A program made the position numbers and the translations under genes. The notes under the pieces were generated by a model. That model saw nothing but the letters and a program-made list of their open reading frames with translations. It ran no database searches and was not told the origin of the DNA. Source: a virus. Taken from it: a stretch of DNA of 45,957 nucleotides. Where the stretch lies: positions 1-45,957 of IMG/VR virus record IMGVR_UViG_3300013100_000004; one strand, written 5' to 3'. How positions within the stretch are numbered: position 1 is the stretch's first letter; each line of letters starts with the position of its first letter. Positions 5,500 through 45,280 of this stretch are shown piece by piece.

Positions 5500-5594
5500 T
5501 ATCGAACAACTCCGATGGTCAAGAAGAGAACGAAGGCGTAAGCCAGGGCGAGCGCCACGAGATGCGCGGCGACAATCAGGACCGCGCGCCTCAT
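5499..5594 (-). CDS. Tiny single-pass membrane peptide (31 aa)
   Basis: A 31-residue frame with two basic residues near the start followed by one long hydrophobic helix (about residues 4-29), ending in Arg. Its ATG overlaps the ASCH gene stop (ATGA) and its TAA overlaps the helicase start (TAATG). That double overlap is strong evidence that it is translated as part of the operon. The function is unknown; it may only couple translation, or it may act in the inner membrane. It is easy to miss because of its size. Confidence 0.68.
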   Translation of the reverse strand: MRRAVLIVAAHLVALALAYAFVLFLTIGVVR

Positions 5595-6031
5595 AGGTTC
5601 TTCCTCCAATCAAAGAAGCCAAGCGCGCCTTTTACCGGGATGAATTCCACCGGCCGCGCATTTCTCAAAATGAAACCGACGTTCGGCTTTCCTTTGCCAC
5701 TGACGCTATTGAAAAACCAATCGCTTTCGCTGGACATTACACAGTCAACTATATCGACAACGCCAATTATCCCGCCAGTTTCATCATCCCATGGAGCGGG
5801 GCCGGTTTCTTTTCCAAAAAAAATTTTATGCAAACCGGTTACTGGATGTACTCTTTCGCTCAAATCCCATGCGCAATCTTTATCGATTTTCTTGCCGGCA
5901 TGGATTGCCACCGGCCCACGATAATTTGTTTTCCAATAACGGTTTTCAATATCCTTTTGACCGTTGACGATAAGCCACGCCCAAGGCTGCATGATAGACA
6001 GCGCCTTTACCGGAATATCTGGATATATCAT
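5591..6031 (-). CDS. ASCH-domain protein (146 aa)
   Basis: The N-terminal half shows the ASCH signature: ALSIMQPWAWLIVNGQKDIE from residue 10, then a basic RGPVAIHAGKK strand at about 38-48. The C-terminal half ends in LGFFDWRKNL. ASCH domains bind RNA or modified nucleobases, and some members are N4-acetylcytidine amidohydrolases. Phage copies are common but mostly uncharacterised. The start overlaps the repressor stop (ATGA). In this operon it could modify or read nucleic acids during early infection, which is inference. Confidence 0.82.
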   Translation of the reverse strand: MIYPDIPVKALSIMQPWAWLIVNGQKDIENRYWKTNYRGPVAIHAGKKIDKDCAWDLSERVHPVTGLHKIFFGKETGPAPWDDETGGIIGVVDIVDCVMSSESDWFFNSVSGKGKPNVGFILRNARPVEFIPVKGALGFFDWRKNL

Positions 6032-6303
6032 ACCACCAGCCCCTCAATAGATTGACCGCAGCACGGGCAGACGGCGGAAGGAAGGCAGTCCATGGCTTCC
6101 GTAAGCATCTCGTCAATTTTCTCAGCGCCGTATTTCTTGCTGATGACGTCCCGCAGATTGTCGAGGATCGGAGCGCGGAAACGAACCGGAAGCTCCCCGT
6201 CAAGATTGTCGTAACGCGTGATGATCGAGCGTGACACGCCGCACATTCTGGCAATCTCTGCCTTGCCGCCGACAATCTCAGCCAGCTTTTCAATCTTGGT
6301 CAT
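6028..6303 (-). CDS. Cro/CI-like helix-turn-helix repressor with C-terminal Cys motif (91 aa)
   Basis: Residues about 12-33 (KAEIARMCGVSRSIITRYDN region) form a helix-turn-helix of the phage Cro/CI type. A short C-terminal extension carries CPCC (C79, C81, C82), possibly a metal-binding or dimerisation tip. There is no peptidase domain, so it is not a LexA/CI-type self-cleaving repressor. An in-frame ATG lies at 6324, but the ATG at 6303 has an AAGGA ribosome site at correct spacing and is preferred. It is the first gene of the leftward operon. Two 17-bp dyads, one covering its own probable -35, lie just upstream, so autoregulation is likely. Confidence 0.85.
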   Translation of the reverse strand: MTKIEKLAEIVGGKAEIARMCGVSRSIITRYDNLDGELPVRFRAPILDNLRDVISKKYGAEKIDEMLTEAMDCLPSAVCPCCGQSIEGLVV

Positions 6304-6316
6304 TCGTTTTTTCCTT

Positions 6317-6333
6317 GTTGACATGCCGTAAAC
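6317..6333. promoter_or_regulatory. Operator dyad A1 (GTTGAC-N5-GTAAAC)
   Basis: A 17-bp imperfect palindrome whose arms extend further, CTTGTT...AACAAG, to give a 23-bp dyad at 6314-6336. It contains a perfect TTGACA at 6318-6323, the probable -35 of the rightward promoter. With site A2 and five sites at 40.2-40.8 kb it defines the consensus GTTKAC-N5-GTNAAC. It also overlaps the weaker upstream ATG of the repressor gene at 6324. Confidence 0.8.
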
Positions 6334-6345
6334 AAGTTGTAAAAG
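6318..6345 (+). promoter_or_regulatory. Probable rightward promoter of the recombination operon
   Basis: TTGACA at 6318-6323, 16-base spacer, TAAAAG at 6340-6345. The -35 is perfect and the -10 is weak (4 of 6). It would start at about 6352, ahead of the membrane-peptide and RecE/RecT genes. The -35 is inside operator A1. Confidence 0.55.
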
Positions 6346-6370
6346 TATCGACGTGTTTACATCGTGTCAA
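6342..6370 (-). promoter_or_regulatory. Probable leftward promoter of the repressor-helicase operon
   Basis: Minus-strand TTGACA at 6370-6365, then TACTTT after 17 bases (or GATACT after 15). Its -10 overlaps the -10 of the rightward promoter, so the two promoters would exclude each other. The -35 is inside operator A2. Confidence 0.5.
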
Positions 6371-6371
6371 C
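6355..6371. promoter_or_regulatory. Operator dyad A2 (GTTTAC-N5-GTCAAC)
   Basis: Second 17-bp dyad, 38 bp centre to centre from A1 and in mirror arrangement. Read on the minus strand it begins with a perfect TTGACA (6365-6370), the probable -35 of the repressor promoter. A dimeric repressor on A1 and A2 would cover both -35 boxes. Confidence 0.8.
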
Positions 6372-6399
6372 ATAAATAAGGAACCGGAGAGCTACCACA

Positions 6400-6555
6400 A
6401 TGAAACAGATTGCAATCGCCGCTCTTGCTTTCGCGCCTTCCATAATCAGCGTACTGGCGGCATTCCATCTTGCCAGCAACGACAAGGATGGATGGGGGTG
6501 GTTTCTTTTCGCGGCGCTAATCTTGGCTGGATCGTACAGCTACAGCAGCAAGTAA
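6400..6555 (+). CDS. Small two-helix membrane protein (51 aa)
   Basis: Two hydrophobic helices (about residues 3-23 and 33-46) are joined by a short polar loop containing SNDKDGWGW. The ribosome site GGAG precedes a CTACCACA leader that is also used for the genes at 6575 and 41156. It is the first gene after the operator pair and so would be made early. The function is unknown; small early phage membrane proteins often act in superinfection exclusion or alter the host envelope, but nothing here proves that. Confidence 0.72.
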   Translation: MKQIAIAALAFAPSIISVLAAFHLASNDKDGWGWFLFAALILAGSYSYSSK

Positions 6556-6574
6556 AACCAAGGAGCTACCACAA

Positions 6575-7438
6575 ATGCCAATCGTACAAGTCACAGATGA
6601 AGAGTACCACAGCGGCGAAGGCGTATCGAAGACGAAGCTTCACAAGCTCATCACGAAGACGCCTTTCCATGCGCAGTTTGGAGCGCGCAAAGAGACGCAA
6701 GCTTTCACCATTGGCAAGGCCGCTCATTGCGCCATCCTGGAGCCAGAAGAACTGGAGCTGCGTTACACCAAAGGGCCGGACGCCCGTCGCAATTCCAACG
6801 AGTGGAAACACGCGGAAGACTTCGCCCGCCATGCCGGAACCACGCTACTAAAGCCGGATGATTACGACACGGCTTTGATGATCCGCGATCTGTCGGCAAC
6901 CGTGCCAGAGCTTGACCTTATGCGTGAAGGCGAGACCATCGTTGAAACGGCAGCCTATCACGTTGACGAAGAGACTGGCGTTCTCGTTAAGACAAAGCCG
7001 GACATCTTCAACGTCAAGCACGGCCTCATTGCCGACATCAAGAATATGGCCGACGCATCTCCGGCGGCCTTCATGAGAGACGTCGGCAAGTTCGGCTATC
7101 ACATGCAAGACGCATTGTATTCCGACGTATGGGAGAAGGGCAGCGGCTACACCGTGAACGGCTTCTTCTTTATCGCATTCGAGAAATCGAACCCGCCATT
7201 GGTTGCGGTCTACGAGCTGACGCCGGAAGCTGTTGCGGAAGGATACGCCATGTATCGCGCAGCCATGGCGAAATATGCCGAGTGTTTGAAGACCGACACA
7301 TGGCCCGGCTATGAAAGCGGCGTCCAGAAGATCGGACTTCGCTATTACGATTACAAGTATACCGAAGCGCCGAAGGGACAGCCGCAGGAGTACCGGGAAG
7401 ACGAGGCCGACCAGGAAGAAGAAGCCAGCGACGAATAA
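6575..7438 (+). CDS. RecE-like exonuclease, PDDEXK superfamily (287 aa)
   Basis: The sequence order fits the phage exodeoxyribonuclease VIII-like family: GKAAH at 47-51, acidic E124, K141-P-D143, then D154-I-K156 in IADIKN as the catalytic D-x-K pair, followed by Q178 in YHMQDALY. It would degrade one strand of double-stranded ends to make single strands for the RecT partner coded 29 bases downstream. The C-terminus is an acidic tail rich in E and D. Length is normal for the short phage RecE domain. Ribosome site AAGGAG with the CTACCACAA leader. Confidence 0.9.
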   Translation: MPIVQVTDEEYHSGEGVSKTKLHKLITKTPFHAQFGARKETQAFTIGKAAHCAILEPEELELRYTKGPDARRNSNEWKHAEDFARHAGTTLLKPDDYDTALMIRDLSATVPELDLMREGETIVETAAYHVDEETGVLVKTKPDIFNVKHGLIADIKNMADASPAAFMRDVGKFGYHMQDALYSDVWEKGSGYTVNGFFFIAFEKSNPPLVAVYELTPEAVAEGYAMYRAAMAKYAECLKTDTWPGYESGVQKIGLRYYDYKYTEAPKGQPQEYREDEADQEEEASDE

Positions 7439-7467
7439 TCGACGCGGCATAATCAAGAGGAAATCAA

Positions 7468-8556
7468 ATGAACCAGCTATCCACCCAGGCCCAGGCCAAA
7501 GAACGCAGCCAGAAGCTTGCCGAATTCCTCGACAACAAGGCCGACGACTTCAAATCGGTCATGGTCATTGAGCCGGGCCGCTTCATGCGCATGGTCAAGA
7601 ACTCCATTCTCCGCGATCCGCAGATTGCCGAGGCAACAACGCAGTCTGTCTTCCTGGAATGCATGAAGGCTGCGGCGGATGGCCTTGTTCTTGACGGCCG
7701 CGAAGCGACGTTGACCCGCTTCAAGACCAACAAGCGCATCAAGAAAGATGGCCGGTGGGTGGACAACTGGCAGACGGAAGTTGCCTATATTCCGATGGTT
7801 GCCGGTATCATGAAGCGCGTTCGCAACTCTGGAGAAATCCAGTCATGGCGCGTTGGCCTCGTCTATCAGAAGGAATACGAGACAGGGAAATTCAATTACG
7901 TCGCCGCGCCGGTCGAAGACATGCGGCACGAACCTATCATCGTCGGGGAGCGCGGCCCCGTCGTCGCTGCTTATTCGGCCGTGCGCCTCAAAGACGGATC
8001 TATCCATTACGAAGTCATGCGCCGCGATGAGCTGGACGCAATCAAGAACCGGACCAAGTCCAAAAAGACCATCACAGAGAACGGCCAGGACAAGACCGTT
8101 ATCACCGGTCCATGGGCGACCGACGAAGAAGAGATGTTCAAGAAGACGGTTATCCGTCGTCACTCCAAGCGATTGCCGGTATCGTCCGAGGTCATGGACG
8201 TGGCGCAGCGTATCGATGCGCTCTATGACCGCGACACTGACAGTTACGTTGTGGATGAAAGCAGCGTTCCGGAACCCAAGCCAGTCGCCTCCAGGCGGTC
8301 ATCCAGCGCGGCCGACCGTCTCCGGCAGGCACAGGCCGAGCGAGACGCCCAGGCGCGCAGAGAGGCCACGGACGTCGATCCTGATGACGTTGGGCAGGAC
8401 CAGGACGAAGACGGCGACCAGGACCAGGGCGAAGAAAGCCACGATCCGGATACCGGCGAAATCCTGGAAGGCGAAATCATCAAGCCTACCGAGGAGAAGA
8501 AGCCCACGGCCAGCAAGAAGAAAGAGCCGGAGATTAATCCGGACGATGAGTTCTAA
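7468..8556 (+). CDS. recT: RecT-family single-strand annealing protein (362 aa)
   Basis: Residues about 30-250 match the RecT annealing domain: ILRDPQIAEATTQSVFLECMKAAADGL near the N-terminus, then YIPMVAGIMKRVRNSG and a conserved KKTVIRRHSKRLP near 235. It coats and anneals single strands made by the upstream exonuclease. After the domain comes a long acidic, low-complexity tail (residues about 275-362) ending EINPDDEF. The PDDEF end is shared with the 298-residue protein of the replication operon and looks like an SSB-type acidic tip, which could dock host replication proteins. That last point is inference. Confidence 0.92.
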   Translation: MNQLSTQAQAKERSQKLAEFLDNKADDFKSVMVIEPGRFMRMVKNSILRDPQIAEATTQSVFLECMKAAADGLVLDGREATLTRFKTNKRIKKDGRWVDNWQTEVAYIPMVAGIMKRVRNSGEIQSWRVGLVYQKEYETGKFNYVAAPVEDMRHEPIIVGERGPVVAAYSAVRLKDGSIHYEVMRRDELDAIKNRTKSKKTITENGQDKTVITGPWATDEEEMFKKTVIRRHSKRLPVSSEVMDVAQRIDALYDRDTDSYVVDESSVPEPKPVASRRSSSAADRLRQAQAERDAQARREATDVDPDDVGQDQDEDGDQDQGEESHDPDTGEILEGEIIKPTEEKKPTASKKKEPEINPDDEF

Positions 8557-8659
8557 TCTGTCCGGTATGGCATAGTGCTGTCAGCCGGGTTGATCGCCGG
8601 ACTTCGAATGTGGGGCAGAACCACGCCGGACACCAAACCTTTAACCGGAGAACGTGACT

Positions 8660-9127
8660 ATGAAAAAAGAAATGACTTTCAGTTGGTGGGCAGGCCGTGA
8701 CGGCGAACACTACATCGTCAATGAGGACAGCCGCGAGGCCGTCATTGCCGCATACATTCGAGACTATGGAGACGAAGAAGGTTTCCATATTGTCGAGGCA
8801 TCTCAGGATGCAAAATTTAGCTATCCAAGCGCGGAAAGCATTTTTGAAATCTTCACCGGCTGCAACGAAGACCTCAGCGGCGAAGACGAATATTTTGCCG
8901 AGAACGTCACCCTTACGCCGGAGCATGACGCAGACCTTGAAAAATCATTCAAGGAAATGTTCTCATCCTGGATGGAGCGTAACGGGATAGAGCCGAACGT
9001 CTACACGTTCACTGCGGAAAGGAATAAGGAATTCATCCCAGGAACCCAACAAGACCCGGACGAAGCTCGCGAAGATCGGGATGAGCGCGAGCGTCTGGAA
9101 AAGGAAAACCCCGATGACGGAACATAA
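8660..9127 (+). CDS. Hypothetical acidic protein (155 aa)
   Basis: I do not recognise a family. The N-terminus (MTFSWWAGRDGEHYIVNEDS) is compact and mixed alpha/beta in look; the C-terminus is strongly charged (DEAREDRDERERLEKE). GGAG at 8647-8650 lies nine bases before the ATG at 8660. An in-frame GTG at 8654 is too close to that site. The last 14 bases overlap the start of the Acb2-like gene. Small acidic proteins next to anti-immunity genes are sometimes inhibitors or DNA mimics, but there is no direct sign of that here. Confidence 0.75.
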   Translation: MKKEMTFSWWAGRDGEHYIVNEDSREAVIAAYIRDYGDEEGFHIVEASQDAKFSYPSAESIFEIFTGCNEDLSGEDEYFAENVTLTPEHDADLEKSFKEMFSSWMERNGIEPNVYTFTAERNKEFIPGTQQDPDEAREDRDERERLEKENPDDGT

Positions 9128-9362
9128 CGGCCTACCAGTGGCAGGATACCGCAAGCAGAGCGAAAAGAACGTTGAGCTTGTGAATAAAGCCAAGGAGATC
9201 GAGGAGCGCGCTTTGCGCCACCTGGACGAACTGCGCAGCGGCGGCAGCGACTTTGACCAGCGTATGGTTTCACTCGCAGTCACCGGCATTCAGGAAGCTT
9301 TCATGTGGGCGAACCGCGCAGTATTTCAGCCGGATCGCGTGAAGCTTCCGGAAGACAAGTAA
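9114..9362 (+). CDS. acb2: Acb2-like anti-CBASS cyclic-nucleotide sponge (82 aa)
   Basis: Length and sequence pattern fit the Acb2/Tad1 helical-hairpin family: an N-terminal GYRKQSE segment, a first helix ELVNKAKEIEERALRHLDEL (residues about 20-39), a short turn with FDQR, and a second helix running through GIQEAFMWANRAVFQP (about 58-73). Known Acb2 proteins form hexamers that bind cyclic di- and trinucleotides and so block CBASS signalling in the cytoplasm. The start at 9114 has AAGGA eight bases upstream and lies inside the previous gene. Recognition is from memory of the family pattern, not from a search. The alternative is another small helical phage protein. Confidence 0.72.
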   Translation: MTEHNGLPVAGYRKQSEKNVELVNKAKEIEERALRHLDELRSGGSDFDQRMVSLAVTGIQEAFMWANRAVFQPDRVKLPEDK

Positions 9363-9464
9363 CACCACGCCGGGAGACGTTCCGCGACCACAGTTCGGCG
9401 TTAAGCTAAAGGCGGATGGCAGTCGGGAAAGACCGGCATCAATCAAACCCCAGGAGAACACACC

Positions 9465-9935
9465 ATGACAAACAGAAAGCCACTCACGGAAACCACGCGC
9501 GTCACGATCAGCATTGACGGCGGCCCTTACACTTCATCAAGGGGCGCGATCATTGCCCAGGTTGTTCAAGCTATTCTTAGCCACGGCTATCTTGCCGCAC
9601 AGGTGACAGAGCTTGACCGCAACGACGAAGCGGCGGCCATCACGCTCGAAAACAAAGACGTCGTTTATGACGACAACGGAATGATCGTCTACGAAAAGGA
9701 AGCCGAGGGCGGCGCAGAAACAGCAGGGCCAGGACCGGCCGTCTCCGACGTCCTGAAAGCCATGGCGCCGGAGCCGGAACCCACCGAAGCGACCGGCGAG
9801 GCCGATGACTGCGATTGCCCGGCCTGCCAAATCCGCCGCATGATCGAGGCCCAACAGGGCAAGCAGGACACGGCCGAGGGCGAGCCTCGCGTTCGCTTCT
9901 ATCTCGCCACCCGCTACGGCCTCTTGCCGTTCTAA
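9465..9935 (+). CDS. Hypothetical protein with Cys cluster (156 aa)
   Basis: No family is recognised. Residues about 10-65 look like a compact alpha/beta domain (TISIDGGPYTSSRGAIIAQV and following). An acidic Pro/Glu-rich linker follows, then a DCDCPAC cluster near residue 117 that may bind metal. It ends in YGLLPF. The ribosome site AGGAGAACACACC precedes the ATG. About 100 bases with no gene separate it from the Acb2-like gene. Confidence 0.72.
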   Translation: MTNRKPLTETTRVTISIDGGPYTSSRGAIIAQVVQAILSHGYLAAQVTELDRNDEAAAITLENKDVVYDDNGMIVYEKEAEGGAETAGPGPAVSDVLKAMAPEPEPTEATGEADDCDCPACQIRRMIEAQQGKQDTAEGEPRVRFYLATRYGLLPF

Positions 9936-10000
9936 CCCTTCCACCCCAAGCCGACAGGCTACCACCTCAAAATCCAACGCCAGCACAAAGGAAAAATTCC

Positions 10001-10426
10001 ATGGCACCTCGCAAGACAGCAACCGCAACTCCAGCTCCAGCAGCGCCCGCCGCCGTCCCGATGACGACGCTTTCCGGCTTTGCCGTCTCGGTTCTGGCCT
10101 TCATCCCGATTGATAAGAAAGACCTGCGCAAACAGGCCGAAATTCCGATGCTCCTCCTGGATATCCAGGAAGGCAAGAAGACAATCGCCGACCTTGCGCC
10201 TCACCTGAAAAATCTGGAATTCCGTCAGCAGCACATCAACAAGCGCTTCACCGCCGAGGAAGCCGCGCAGCTCATGGGAACCGCTCCGGCGTCGCTCGAC
10301 CTGGATGGCGATAAGGACCAGACGCACACGCCGGAGAACACTGACATCGACAGCGACGGCAACCTTGAAGGCGAGCAGGACGGCGGCGTTGACTACGCCG
10401 ACGAAGGCGACAACTCGGAAGATTGA
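10001..10426 (+). CDS. Hypothetical acidic-tailed protein (141 aa)
   Basis: An Ala/Pro-rich start (residues 1-20) is followed by a helical core (about 25-95, with DKKDLRKQAEIPMLLLDIQE and HLKNLEFRQQHINKRFTAEE) and a very acidic tail (95-141) rich in D, E and G. The core is reminiscent of small phage coiled or DNA-associated proteins, but I cannot name it. The ATG at 10001 has an AAAGGA ribosome site; the frame is open further upstream, but those starts overlap the previous gene and lack a site. Confidence 0.75.
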   Translation: MAPRKTATATPAPAAPAAVPMTTLSGFAVSVLAFIPIDKKDLRKQAEIPMLLLDIQEGKKTIADLAPHLKNLEFRQQHINKRFTAEEAAQLMGTAPASLDLDGDKDQTHTPENTDIDSDGNLEGEQDGGVDYADEGDNSED

Positions 10427-10433
10427 TTTCATC

Positions 10434-10616
10434 TTGCAGTCGTGTACTATTGGAAGGCCGGTCAAGGTTGATACCGATATCTTAAACGCCACTATCGAGC
10501 GCGAAGAGGCCGAGCGGCAAGAGGTGACGGAAATAGTTGAAGCCATTGGCGATAACTACGATGAAATCCAAAGCCTTCTGATTTCACACGGTTATATCCA
10601 ACGCGGCGAATTCTAA
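10434..10616 (+). CDS. Small hypothetical protein, non-ATG start (about 60 aa)
   Basis: The C-terminal 45 residues (ILNATIEREEAERQEVTEIV and following, ending HGYIQRGEF) look like a normal helical protein, but there is no ATG in frame after the previous gene. A TTG at 10434 or an ATT at 10422 overlapping the upstream stop are possible starts. Another option is a +1 shift from the preceding gene that would fuse this as an extension. It is the last gene before a strong terminator. Confidence 0.5.
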   Translation: MQSCTIGRPVKVDTDILNATIEREEAERQEVTEIVEAIGDNYDEIQSLLISHGYIQRGEF

Positions 10617-10622
10617 TGGAAA

Positions 10623-10652
10623 GGGCGGCGCTACAAACGCCGCCCTCTTTTT
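10623..10652 (+). terminator. Terminator between the rightward recombination operon and the leftward late operon
   Basis: Perfect 8-bp stem GGGCGGCG / CGCCGCCC (10623-10630, 10638-10645) with a 7-base loop, followed by TCTTTTT on the plus strand. On the minus strand the stem is followed by only CTTTCC, so it may stop leftward transcripts weakly too. Confidence 0.9.
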
Positions 10653-10660
10653 ATTTACCG

Positions 10661-11701
10661 TCAAGCAGCCATGGCCGCAACAACATCATTCTTGTTCGCC
10701 GCAGCAATGGCATCATGAACAACGTCCTTGTAATGAGTGCCATCAGTATAATAAGTAGTGTCGGCCGTGTTACCGTTGGCGATATTTATATAAGAAACTT
10801 TAGCTTCGCTATCGAAAAGGTACGATCTGTTAAAGCCAAGCTTGTCAAAGTTATTGCGCCATAAACCATTAAGCGTGTTTATGCGAGCGTTAAGGGCCGC
10901 ATTCTCACTCCTCTTCGGGTGTGTCTCAAAGGCAATCTTTTGATTGACGCCATGTTCCGCTTTGAACTCCACTAGACGCGGAACAATACGATTTGCCCAC
11001 AAGTCTTCCGGGGAGATGGCGTCATAGGGAAGATCGTTAGTCAGTCGGTAAATAAATAGCGTGTTTCCGATGAGAGAAAGCGTCTTTGTTCTTTGCTGAA
11101 AAGCCAAGTCTTCACGGAAAGGATAGTCTACCTCTTGGCTGTTCGCCGGGTTGGTATTCCCCCATGAACTTCCTCCTAGCGACATGTTGAAGAGGTAATA
11201 ATCCTCGCTCAAACCTTCGGTGTATGTGGTGTCATTCCATTTAAGAGTGTTGCCCGCAATGGAATTGATTAGCTTAGCAATCCATACGCTTCGAGTGTCG
11301 CCGGTAGACGTACCAAGACCAAAACCCAAACTATCTTCGCGGAAGAAAATGGATTTCTTCAATGGGTGCGGCTGACCGATAAGACTTAAACTTCCGCGAA
11401 CCCATCCAATCGGCATTACCGAAACAACAGTTGCCATTTCGTTTGCGCTCAACTCCCCACTAATTGCAGAGTAATGAAGGTCAGGAACACGAACCCATAC
11501 ATTGGTATCCGCAGCAATACCCATTTCAAAAAGATAACGAGTGCCGCCCATGGGGTAGCCGAATTTTTTTGAAAACCATCTATGGGTTAGGTTTGCGGGA
11601 GACACCTCGCGAGCGTCGCCCGACGTGCGGGCTGATCCTCCACCATAAGCGGGCCTAAGAATGCTGTCAGGACGGAACCACTTGCCAGTTTCTGCACCCA
11701 T
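10661..11701 (-). CDS. SGNH-hydrolase-type tail or receptor-binding protein (346 aa)
   Basis: The four SGNH blocks can be read in order: EDSLGFG with Ser124 (the usual GDS is EDS here), block II Gly at 176-177 in NMSLGGSS, Asn222 in LTND, and Asp320/His323 in DGTH. Such domains deacetylate or de-esterify sugars. In phage tails they trim surface polysaccharide during adsorption. The first 100 residues look like a beta-rich particle-binding or carbohydrate-binding part. It is the last gene of the late operon. Its ATG overlaps the upstream stop (TAATG), so it is coupled to the lectin-like gene before it. Confidence 0.72.
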   Translation of the reverse strand: MGAETGKWFRPDSILRPAYGGGSARTSGDAREVSPANLTHRWFSKKFGYPMGGTRYLFEMGIAADTNVWVRVPDLHYSAISGELSANEMATVVSVMPIGWVRGSLSLIGQPHPLKKSIFFREDSLGFGLGTSTGDTRSVWIAKLINSIAGNTLKWNDTTYTEGLSEDYYLFNMSLGGSSWGNTNPANSQEVDYPFREDLAFQQRTKTLSLIGNTLFIYRLTNDLPYDAISPEDLWANRIVPRLVEFKAEHGVNQKIAFETHPKRSENAALNARINTLNGLWRNNFDKLGFNRSYLFDSEAKVSYINIANGNTADTTYYTDGTHYKDVVHDAIAAANKNDVVAAMAA

Positions 11702-41155: not shown

Positions 41156-41599
41156 ATGACCGCACGTATCACCAAAAGCCGCGACCCTATCCTAAAGCAG
41201 CTCCAGGCGGATTATACCGCCGCCCTAGAAGCTTCCGTTTATGCCGTCGAGTGCATTGCCTGGGATAAGGCCGTTGAACGCATCAACAAGGCGCGCAGGG
41301 CTTTGATTGCCCGCGAGGCGCTTTACACGCCACGCCGCGAGCGCAAGGCCGCCAGGAAGGCGAGCCACATGAAGCACATTCTCAACCGTCTTTACAAAGG
41401 GCCGGAGCCGAGGCACCCACTAAGCACCATGTGGTTCGCCCAGGAAATGAACCAAGCGCGCGGATATATCAGGTCGCTCGTAAAAGGTGAGGTGGCCCCC
41501 GTCATGCGTGAGGACTTTATCCGCGAAACAAATCTTTGCCTTTATTGGGCGAGGCAGCACCGCTTGCAAGCCGTCGCTTTCGGCCGTCGCCTGCCATGA
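41156..41599 (+). CDS. Hypothetical basic helical protein (147 aa)
   Basis: Mostly helical and strongly basic, with RRERKAARKASHMKHILNRL in the middle and Trp residues near the end. Not recognised. It has the GGAG-CTACCACA leader also seen before 6400 and 6575. Its stop overlaps the LuxR-type gene start (ATGA). It may bind nucleic acid, judging by charge only. Confidence 0.72.
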   Translation: MTARITKSRDPILKQLQADYTAALEASVYAVECIAWDKAVERINKARRALIAREALYTPRRERKAARKASHMKHILNRLYKGPEPRHPLSTMWFAQEMNQARGYIRSLVKGEVAPVMREDFIRETNLCLYWARQHRLQAVAFGRRLP

Positions 41600-41793
41600 C
41601 CGTGCCAACCCCAAGACAGCTTGAAGTGATAGCGCTTTTGGCAGACGGCAAGAAGCTGCACGAGATCGCTGAAATCTTGGGGATCAGCCGGTACACGGTA
41701 GGCAGGCATGTGACAGACGCTTTCGAACGGACAGGCGCAGCGAATTCATCCGGCCTTGTCGCCATGGCGCTGCGCAATAAATGGATCGAGTAA
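41596..41793 (+). CDS. Mini LuxR/GerE-type helix-turn-helix protein (65 aa)
   Basis: The whole protein is a GerE-type DNA-binding domain: TPRQLEVIALLADGKKLHEI, AEILGISRYTVGRHVTDAFE and a closing helix. There is no receiver or ligand-binding part. It could be the regulator that uses the second repeat family, or an activator for the late promoter; both are inference. The ATG overlaps the previous stop. The longer frame from 41536 is unsupported. Confidence 0.85.
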   Translation: MTVPTPRQLEVIALLADGKKLHEIAEILGISRYTVGRHVTDAFERTGAANSSGLVAMALRNKWIE

Positions 41794-41813: not shown

Positions 41814-41975
41814 ATGACTACCGTAGTTTCTATCATCCTCTATTTTATCGCGGCGCTTTTAGGCGTCATGATAGGATCGAACATTGAAAAGCAAAACGAC
41901 AAAGAGGCACGTTCCGGGATAGTGATTTTCGTGATCATCTTTATTCTGGCCGTTGCTCTACAGGTGGCAGCATGA
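41814..41975 (+). CDS. Small two-helix membrane protein (53 aa)
   Basis: Two hydrophobic helices (about 3-20, SIILYFIAALLGVMIG, and 35-53, IVIFVIIFILAVALQVA) flank a short charged loop (EKQNDKEARS). AGGAG ribosome site eight bases before the ATG; an in-frame ATG at 41781 lacks one. Stop overlaps the next start by ATGA. The function is unknown. Confidence 0.72.
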   Translation: MTTVVSIILYFIAALLGVMIGSNIEKQNDKEARSGIVIFVIIFILAVALQVAA

Positions 41976-43111
41976 CCGAGAAAAACGAATATTATATCAC
42001 CGGATCGCAGACAGTGACCAACGCCGCAGAGGCCGCGCAACTGGCTGCAAGTAATTTCCCGGCCGTGGCCCGTCACATTGGCGAAGATCGCTGGCACGTC
42101 AGCTTTTTGGCGACCGCTCCAATGCATGAAAATCAGCGGCCGTTCATGGCGACCATCGCAGAGCGCTTGCGCCTGGAAAGCCGCCTTGAGCTGCCTTATC
42201 GCAATTGGCGCGGCGAAACGTCTATGCGCAGGCTCCACCCCATCGGCGTCACGTTCGCGGCTACGGAATGGCACCCGGAACCGCAATGGCTCCTGGAAGC
42301 CTACGACCTGGACAAGAAGGCAGAGCGCACCTTTGCCTTGAAGGACTTCAATCCGCTCAATTTCCCGCAGGATTATGAAGCAATCGGCAAGAAGCTCCTG
42401 GAGATCGGGGCCATGTGCGATGACCAGGAGATTGCGCGCACGGCTTACGACGCAGCGACGGCGTTGGCGTCTCCGGTTCCGACAGCAACAAAGCCACAGC
42501 CAGAAATCGGCATGAAGTCCGCATTGAAGACGCTTCGAGAAAACCAGCGCCAGCTTGACGCCGATGGCTGTGAAGTAGGCGTTTCACGCGAGGCACTTCA
42601 CATGCTGCTAGAGGCGTATGATCGCGGCCGAGAAACAATTTATTTCCAGCTCGACAAAATCAAAGCAATGCGCGACGTTGTGCCATTCCGCTCGACGGAC
42701 GCGGAGCCAGTATTGACCGGAGTGGCGTCGCTCGATATCGGCCCGCTAAAGGAAGCCTGGGAAAAACTCTACGCAGCATCCAAAGACGTTCAGCGTATCT
42801 TGGAAAAGCAGAAAGACGCGCTCCAGGCCGAGAACGACCGCCTCAAAGACCCAGGCGACGGCCGACCATGCACCATGGATGAATTCGTTGCGGCCCTTTA
42901 TGAAGATTGCCGCGATAACATGGAGCGCAACGAGGCAATTGAATTCTGGCTTTATGGCGATTGGGCTGGAGCTTTCAATTATCTCAGCGTGGAGAGCGCG
43001 CAACGCCTCCATGCCAAATCATTGCCCAAGCTCACCCAGGACGAAGAGGAGGAAATTGCCTCCTACGAGCGCCTTCAAAACAAGATCAACGCCAAGGACG
43101 GAAACATATGA
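41972..43111 (+). CDS. Phage protein with WYL-like N-terminal segment (379 aa)
   Basis: Residues about 75-125 contain YRNWRGETSMRRLHPIGVTF and TEWHPEPQWLLEAYDLDK, a pattern common in phage hypothetical proteins and reminiscent of WYL-type beta domains that can bind nucleic acid or nucleotides. Residues 240-300 are a coiled helix (QRILEKQKDALQAENDRLKD). It may be a mosaic of two or three modules. No catalytic motif is seen. ATGA overlaps at both ends place it in the operon. Confidence 0.75.
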   Translation: MTEKNEYYITGSQTVTNAAEAAQLAASNFPAVARHIGEDRWHVSFLATAPMHENQRPFMATIAERLRLESRLELPYRNWRGETSMRRLHPIGVTFAATEWHPEPQWLLEAYDLDKKAERTFALKDFNPLNFPQDYEAIGKKLLEIGAMCDDQEIARTAYDAATALASPVPTATKPQPEIGMKSALKTLRENQRQLDADGCEVGVSREALHMLLEAYDRGRETIYFQLDKIKAMRDVVPFRSTDAEPVLTGVASLDIGPLKEAWEKLYAASKDVQRILEKQKDALQAENDRLKDPGDGRPCTMDEFVAALYEDCRDNMERNEAIEFWLYGDWAGAFNYLSVESAQRLHAKSLPKLTQDEEEEIASYERLQNKINAKDGNI

Positions 43112-43764: not shown

Positions 43765-43971
43765 ATGGATCATCATTCTTTCAGCACCGTGAAGAAAGGC
43801 GCGCAGCTTACGCGCATGACAACGGTTGAGCTTAACGGCACTACGTACAAGTGCCGCCACACTGGAGCGGTCTTTTCGTTTGACGAGAAGGAACGCACAT
43901 TCACCAACGAAATTCATTTCTGGTCGCCGCTCGCTGCCGAGGTGCGCAAGGCAACGGGATGGTTCGAATGA
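43765..43971 (+). CDS. Small hypothetical protein (68 aa)
   Basis: Compact and aromatic: VELNGTTYKCRHTGAVFSFD, then EIHFWSPLAAEV. It looks like a small beta-rich domain with a lone Cys. GGGAG precedes the ATG. An internal ATG at residue 18 is also possible. The stop overlaps the next start (ATGA). Confidence 0.7.
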   Translation: MDHHSFSTVKKGAQLTRMTTVELNGTTYKCRHTGAVFSFDEKERTFTNEIHFWSPLAAEVRKATGWFE

Positions 43972-44132
43972 CCCACATCATCCACCACACGAAGACCCGG
44001 CCGCTTCCTTCGCCGCGCGCCATTCGAACCCTTATCATCATTGGAATGATCGCCTTCACCGCTTGCGCCGTGCTTGCCGCGATCCGCGTAAACGAGGCCG
44101 CCCAGGTGCAGGCCATGGAGGACAGGACATGA
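43968..44132 (+). CDS. Small single-pass membrane protein upstream of the clamp gene (54 aa)
   Basis: A basic His/Lys/Arg-rich N-terminus (MTHIIHHTKTRPLPSPRAIR) is followed by one hydrophobic helix (21-39, TLIIIGMIAFTACAVLAAI) and a short polar tail. ATGA overlaps with both neighbours, including the sliding clamp gene at 44129, show it is in the operon. The function is unknown. Confidence 0.72.
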   Translation: MTHIIHHTKTRPLPSPRAIRTLIIIGMIAFTACAVLAAIRVNEAAQVQAMEDRT

Positions 44133-45280
44133 AAAGCATCGGGAACATCACCGTTAACGGCCGCGACTTTGCCAAGGCAATGAAAGCGGCCATGACCGTA
44201 AACGAATTCAATCCGCGCATTCCTATCCTGCGTTGCGTTCGCCTTTGCATGGTGCGGCCCGGCTTGCGCATCTTCGCGACTGACTTGGATATGGAAATCA
44301 TGGTTCCGCTCGACTTGATCGAGGCCGAGGGGAAATTTGACGTTTGCATTCCTGCAGCACTTCTTGCGAAGATCGCCGCCCAAGCCGGAGCCTCAAGCAT
44401 CGCTATGTTGCACGAGGAGGTTGCCAACGGAAAAGATGACGAAGGAAAGCCGCGTACCAAGCAGCAAATAACCGTCATCGTCGGCGACGAAGAGGCGGAA
44501 TACGTCCTTGACTGCCTGCCTTCAAGCGATTGGCCGGAGATGACGCAACCCGAAAAGCTATCGTCAGCCGGAACATTCACCAACGGCCAGCTATCGGAGA
44601 TTTTCGCCGAAGTCATCAAAACGGTATCGACCGAGGAAACGCGGTATTACCTGAATGGCATTCACTACAAAGGTGGCATGTGCGAAGCGACGGACGGCCA
44701 CCGTCTTCGACGACACGTCTTCGATAAAGCGCCGATGCACGGGCATGACGTCATCATTCCGCGCAAGGCTTGCCGCGTCATCATCGACCAGGGCAAGGAT
44801 GGCGTGACGCTGGAGGTTGACCAGACTGGCAATCGGATGCTTATCAGTTTCAGCAATGGCAACCGCCTGTTCTCCAAGATGATCGACGGCAGCTTTCCAG
44901 ATACGGAACGCGTAATTCCAAAGGAAGGACAATTCACCTTTGACTTTGACGCCGCCCGTTTCCGACTTGCTGTTGAGCGCGTCATTTCCATGTCAAGCGA
45001 GCGCGGCCGGGCTTTGAAGATATTCAACCACGAAGGCAAGGCTTGCGTCAAAGTCTCTAATCCTGATTTCGGATCAGCGACCGCGCAGACCTTTGCGGAA
45101 TGGCCGATTGGCGGAGAAGAGGTCGGCTTTAACGGCCGCTATATCCTGGACTTCATTCCCAAGGGCGGCCGCATTCAGATCAACGGCAGCGGGAGCGGAG
45201 CGCCGTTCCTCATTCGCCACGTCAACGGCGTCGATGACGACAGCGCCAACACGCGCGTTGTCATGCCCATGCGTGTCTAG
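44129..45280 (+). CDS. dnaN: DNA polymerase III beta subunit (sliding clamp), phage-encoded (383 aa)
   Basis: The order of features is that of bacterial beta clamps: an N-terminal domain with NPRIPILRCVRLCMVRPGLR and ATDLDMEI, a middle YYLNGIHY...EATDGHRLRRH region, PRKACRVI, and a C-terminal GGRIQIN, then VDDDSANTRVVMPMRV, close to the usual VMPMR(L/V) end. It would ring DNA and tether a polymerase. It is somewhat longer than host DnaN (about 370). No phage DNA polymerase is coded in this window, so it probably captures host Pol III. An upstream frame to 43826 is a shadow. Confidence 0.92.
   Translation: MKSIGNITVNGRDFAKAMKAAMTVNEFNPRIPILRCVRLCMVRPGLRIFATDLDMEIMVPLDLIEAEGKFDVCIPAALLAKIAAQAGASSIAMLHEEVANGKDDEGKPRTKQQITVIVGDEEAEYVLDCLPSSDWPEMTQPEKLSSAGTFTNGQLSEIFAEVIKTVSTEETRYYLNGIHYKGGMCEATDGHRLRRHVFDKAPMHGHDVIIPRKACRVIIDQGKDGVTLEVDQTGNRMLISFSNGNRLFSKMIDGSFPDTERVIPKEGQFTFDFDAARFRLAVERVISMSSERGRALKIFNHEGKACVKVSNPDFGSATAQTFAEWPIGGEEVGFNGRYILDFIPKGGRIQINGSGSGAPFLIRHVNGVDDDSANTRVVMPMRV

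Follow-up and report, generated by a model that had tools for sequence, protein, structure and literature searches.

The gene at positions 9114-9362 (+) of the window, which is the whole IMG/VR record of 45,957 bases, encodes a protein of 82 amino acids that is clearly a genuine member of the PF24729 / Acb2 family. By analogy with the characterized members of this family, the product is very probably a cyclic-oligonucleotide sponge that acts against CBASS. The open reading frame (ORF) begins with an ATG start codon and ends with a TAA stop codon, and its product has the sequence MTEHNGLPVAGYRKQSEKNVELVNKAKEIEERALRHLDELRSGGSDFDQRMVSLAVTGIQEAFMWANRAVFQPDRVKLPEDK, in which the strings EIEERALRHLDEL and IQEAFMWANRAVFQP are both found.

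Family membership and predicted structure

The Acb2/Tad1 hairpin domain spans residues 11-72 (9144-9329, +), and all 58 positions (1-58) of PF24729 (Acb2_Tad1_hairpin) are matched there with E=2.9e-18 and 66.2 bits, where the curated cut-off is 27 bits. This strong profile match bears out the Acb2-type identity that an earlier note on this DNA had proposed. The observation is real and lies far above chance: a profile built without the window gives 125 bits for the acb2 frame, while the next frame of the window reaches 6.3 bits and the best of 20 codon-shuffled windows 9.6 bits. Searches of the PDB lead to the same family. With the single sequence, T4 Vs.4 ranks first (1.6e-4), and with profiles built from 9 or 77 relatives the matches are T4 Vs.4 (7uq2) at 7e-11 and PaP2 Acb2 (8h2j, 8ixz) at 7e-10 to 7e-11. 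Over a search length of 86 residues, the PaP2 protein, p26, has the same sequence in PaP2, PaMx33 and PaMx35. Identity to the solved Acb2 members is low, at 21-29% in structural alignments. A search of NCBIfam with the 82 amino acid protein returned no family, and all of its PHROGs matches are labelled 'unknown function'.

An AlphaFold2 model of the monomer, made with a 77-sequence alignment, has a pLDDT of 88.8, consists of two helices (residues 17-42 and 49-70) and contains no strand. Acb2 also has a short N-terminal helix, but the corresponding segment is not helical in this model. When the model was compared with the PDB by Foldseek, the best eight matches were all Acb2 (7uq2, 8h2j, 8h2x; probability 1.00, TMq 0.66-0.74), and the first match outside Acb2 was Rop, with E=1.0. 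The Foldseek E-values are modest for a helical protein of this small size, the best being 1.7e-3, yet the order of the matches is unambiguous and consistent with the sequence searches. Thus, the helical hairpin claimed in the earlier note is indeed that of Acb2 in the predicted monomer. The same note's shortened N-terminus is not recovered, as 11 residues precede the conserved tyrosine versus 10 in PaP2 Acb2, and it is the inter-helix loop that is short. Its description of the protein as one of the shorter members needs to be qualified, since most proteins in this group have 80-95 amino acids, making 82 typical, and family members as small as 74-76 amino acids exist.

The start codon is well placed, in that the start methionine of close homologues (MTEH, MADH, MTQH) is that of acb2. 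A longer in-frame ORF with its start at 9081 was ruled out because the homologues begin at the equivalent of 9114. Values of dN/dS against the window are saturated for many relatives, the sister phage described below included, and we therefore make no claim of selection beyond conservation.

Three residues of the probable ligand site are of particular interest. In the alignment, Tyr12 (codon 9147-9149, +) corresponds to T4 Acb2 Y8 and PaP2 Y11 and is kept in 78 of 79 homologues. Lys27 (9192-9194, +), the equivalent of PaP2 Acb2 K26, and Thr57 (9282-9284, +), the equivalent of T4 Acb2 T68, are both found in all 79, and the complete set of invariant residues is G11, N24, K27, E30, T57, F63, M64, N67, R68, F71 and P73. 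In 2023, Huiting et al. reportedly placed K26 of PaP2 Acb2 in the dinucleotide pocket. Residue R50 aligns with PaP2 R67, which we take to be part of the trinucleotide site. In T4 Acb2, Y8A is binding-deficient and T68M has a lower binding affinity (PMC12657230). The conservation of the Y8, T68 and K26 equivalents argues for the same dinucleotide pocket. However, position 56 is a valine where PaP2, T4 and most relatives carry a lysine or arginine, and therefore ligand preference may differ.

Gene neighbourhood, phage and probable host

The gene is part of a rightward block that includes a recE-like exonuclease VIII gene (6575-7438, +; phrog_412 5e-74, PF12684 2.5e-28) and recT, encoding a single-strand annealing protein (7468-8556, +; PF03837 1.7e-29, phrog_148 6e-39). 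Next come an ORF of 155 codons with a weak match to phrog_1672 (8660-9127, +), acb2 and further small ORFs. A terminator-like hairpin marks the end of the block (10622-10646, +) and is composed of a 9-pair stem, 8 of its pairs being GC, followed by CTTTTTATTT. The earlier note had placed acb2 directly after RecE/RecT, which is incorrect for this phage since the 155 amino acid ORF intervenes. This ORF and acb2 have 14 bases in common, which suggests that their translation is coupled. That note had also invoked early repressor control. The gene order and a gene divergent to recE for a 98 amino acid HTH-like protein, a possible regulator (6028-6324, -), hint at such control, but the HTH_3 match of this protein (E=0.0096) falls below the cut-off. 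A search of 6200-10700 revealed no sigma-70-like promoter, a result that speaks neither for nor against early expression.

A sister phage (G399, L043/L133), whose terminase DNA is 80% identical, has the order HTH gene, recE, recT and acb2. The 155 amino acid ORF is absent there, and acb2 lies directly behind recT. The 98 amino acid HTH-like protein has a homologue in this phage that is 47% identical.

Elsewhere, the neighbours of acb2 homologues are different. In three cases (L053, L062 and L122, the last being Rhodobacter phage RcapMu) the homologue is located just behind the major capsid gene, or one gene further in RcapMu, so that acb2 occurs in structural as well as early modules. G402, a viral contig of 46 kb whose head protein is homologous, carries two Acb2/Tad1-hairpin genes. 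One of these (L062/L131, C1:7755-7937) immediately follows the gene for the major capsid protein, and the other (L134, C1:43568-43735) is divergent, lacks the GY motif and is located beside the terminase region. In Rhizobium phage RHph_X2_26 (L147 / MW960037.1 30124-30929), 17 bases separate the homologue from a preceding gene that carries the annotation TIR-domain protein. This pairing of a TIR gene with a nucleotide sponge in a phage merits attention.

The window contains podovirus-like genes for a head-tail adaptor, a major head protein, a terminase and a tail tubular protein, and megablast of both of its halves against the phage collection found no near relative. Its other genes include one for a DNA polymerase III beta-clamp-like protein with all three clamp domains (43826-45280, +), as well as genes for a LuxR-type HTH protein (41593-41790), a WYL-domain protein (41972-43111) and an ASCH-domain protein (5591-6031). 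The host is probably alphaproteobacterial, because close acb2 homologues are carried by Rhizobium and Brevundimonas phages and by one Phyllobacterium genome.

Within Hyphomicrobiales, the order of Phyllobacterium, PF24729 is found above its cut-off in 20 of 397 sampled genomes and a CBASS-type SMODS nucleotidyltransferase in 38 of the 397, so both sides of the conflict are present in this order. If the hosts are Hyphomicrobiales, the SMODS frequency supports the sponge function. Two named genomes with close acb2 homologues were searched for SMODS without a match, and thus these two provide no case of co-occurrence. A mid-gene frame change interrupts the acb2 homologue of L011 and that of L013, which is on a Martelella mediterranea contig, so that both look broken, whereas intact copies exist elsewhere.

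Proposed function and its alternatives

Acb2 forms a hexamer that sequesters cyclic di- and trinucleotides without degrading them. Three pockets between protomers accept the dinucleotides, and two sites at the ends of the central channel accept the trinucleotides (PMC12043709). The protein described here, with its extended N-terminal GLPVAGY segment and two predicted antiparallel helices, would likewise assemble into a hexamer, as in solved Acb2. Pockets formed by two protomers, and including Tyr12, Lys27 and Thr57, would then take up cyclic dinucleotides such as 3'3'-cGAMP and leave them intact, and perhaps cyclic trinucleotides are bound at another site within the central channel. Signals sequestered in this way would be unable to activate CBASS effectors, which would allow infection to proceed. 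For the 82 amino acid protein, we infer the hexamer, ligand binding, ligand range and anti-CBASS activity as well as its early expression.

The earlier note had extended this role to Thoeris-like immunity, and we do not follow it there. Binding of gcADPR, which relates to Thoeris, is assigned to Tad1 and Tad2 and is not listed for Acb2, and Tad1 protomers carry an N-terminal antiparallel beta-sheet (PMC12043709). Because gcADPR binding belongs to these two proteins and the beta-sheet of Tad1 is missing from the 82 amino acid protein, a Thoeris role is unsupported. We consider it very unlikely that the protein is a sponge of the Tad1 kind, with gcADPR as its main ligand and Thoeris as the defence that it blocks. 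Tad1 does share the C-terminal hairpin of PF24729, and Tad1 chains appear in the PDB profile searches with E of about 0.006-0.009, matching through the last helix alone. In addition, the homologue beside a TIR-domain-annotated gene in a Rhizobium phage could be read in this direction. However, there is no strand in the AlphaFold2 model that would correspond to the N-terminal sheet, the protein has only 82 residues compared with 123-138 for Tad1 chains, and the 50 listed structural matches in the PDB include no Tad1 chain.

There is equally little reason to favour an Acb2-fold protein whose ligand has been changed by the C-terminal tail and the short loop, such that a different nucleotide signal is bound in place of the CBASS cyclic dinucleotides. 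That nearly all of the 79 relatives have the tail, and PaP2 and T4 do not, might be taken to indicate such a change, as might V56 in place of the usual lysine or arginine. Nevertheless, the conserved equivalents of T4 Y8 and T68 and of PaP2 K26 make it a highly improbable outcome. Finally, the location of the gene in the recE-recT block, together with a homologue in Pseudoalteromonas phage B8b that also lies between a YqaJ exonuclease gene and recT, raises the idea that the product is a helical-hairpin accessory protein for recombination and no sponge at all. This is extremely unlikely given a PF24729 score far above the cut-off and the wide gap between the genuine frame and the best shuffled window. 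Moreover, homologues elsewhere follow capsid genes or have unrelated neighbours, and hence the association with recombination is not constant. A CBASS-directed Acb2 sponge is thus the function that we prefer.

A tail-bearing branch and comparison with known systems

Relatives of acb2 are found in 160 viral-contig stretches and 172 phage records match, and most of these relatives are annotated as 'hypothetical'. Acb2 homologues have already been described in 239 tailed phages (PMC12043709). It is clear that the known Acb2 family gains a further ordinary member, which adds a well-supported candidate for anti-CBASS function in a podovirus-like phage without a close relative in the phage collection.

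Of wider interest is a large Acb2 branch whose members share a conserved C-terminal tail that is seen in neither solved structure. In the window, this tail is RVKLPEDK (residues 75-82; 9336-9359, +), as defined by alignments. Its consensus is R-[VI]-x-L-P-E-D following FQP, with R75 conserved in 78 of 79 homologues, L78 in 71 and D81 in 67. The tail is found in four of the six named homologues from alphaproteobacterial phages that were aligned, and is altered in the remaining two, RcapMu and RcWaterboi. It is absent from PaP2, T4, KP15, GAP32, Vibrio D69 and other aligned members from gammaproteobacterial phages. Compared with both solved Acb2 proteins, the branch is distinguished by the GLPVAGY head, a loop that is some 15-19 residues shorter, and the conserved tail. 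However, members of 74-76 amino acids from gammaproteobacterial phages also have the short loop, and therefore the tail and the head alone are left as candidate features of the branch. Perhaps, in this mainly alphaproteobacterial-phage branch, the tail extends into the ligand pocket or caps it and gives a different or broader range of signals, for example gcADPR-type or further nucleotide signals in addition to those of CBASS, although we regard this as unlikely. No biochemistry for the tail-bearing branch was found in the literature consulted, and a single member would show whether the ligand range of Acb2 is uniform.

Several other variants of the family were observed. A short PF24729 clade in genomes of the sampled order (L014, L015, L016, L023 and L036) carries the motif R..NN.MRH.YR.L...EK ... 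EAVMWAVK, lacks the GY motif and is possibly another sponge branch. In Caulobacter phage Jess A (L121, 4716-5282), the Acb2 hairpin forms the C-terminus of a 188 amino acid protein and may represent a fusion. Similarly, the profile of PHROG 717 has 289 positions with the hairpin at the C-terminal end of a longer protein, again a possible fusion.

Among named systems, PaP2/PaMx33 Acb2 (p26; 8H2J, 8IXZ) resembles the 82 amino acid protein in its GY motif, N23 and K26, the two-helix hairpin, and the motif GRW..T.IQ..MM...RA..QPD, with a TMq of up to 0.70. It differs in that its inter-helix loop is about 17-19 residues longer, it ends at QPDSF without the RVKLPEDK tail, and it has K73 in the position of V56. 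T4 Acb2 (Vs.4; 7UQ2) is the top structural match (TMq 0.74) and shares the conserved Y8 and T68 as well as a nearly identical MWA(C/N)RAVFQP motif, but its loop is longer, and it lacks both the C-terminal tail and any residue aligned with R50. Tad1 (7UAV, 8KBE) belongs to the same Pfam hairpin family and its last helix is alignable, whereas its extra N-terminal beta-sheet is absent from the 82 amino acid protein and its ligand is gcADPR. Closer in sequence, with 53-61% identity, are uncharacterized proteins of Rhizobium phages RHph_N1_15, RHph_Y2_11 and RHEph10 and of Phyllobacterium sp. 628. The Rhizobium phage proteins are annotated as hypothetical and their genes have other neighbours. Where aligned, these homologues and that of Phyllobacterium sp. 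628 share the GLPVAGY segment and the LPED tail.
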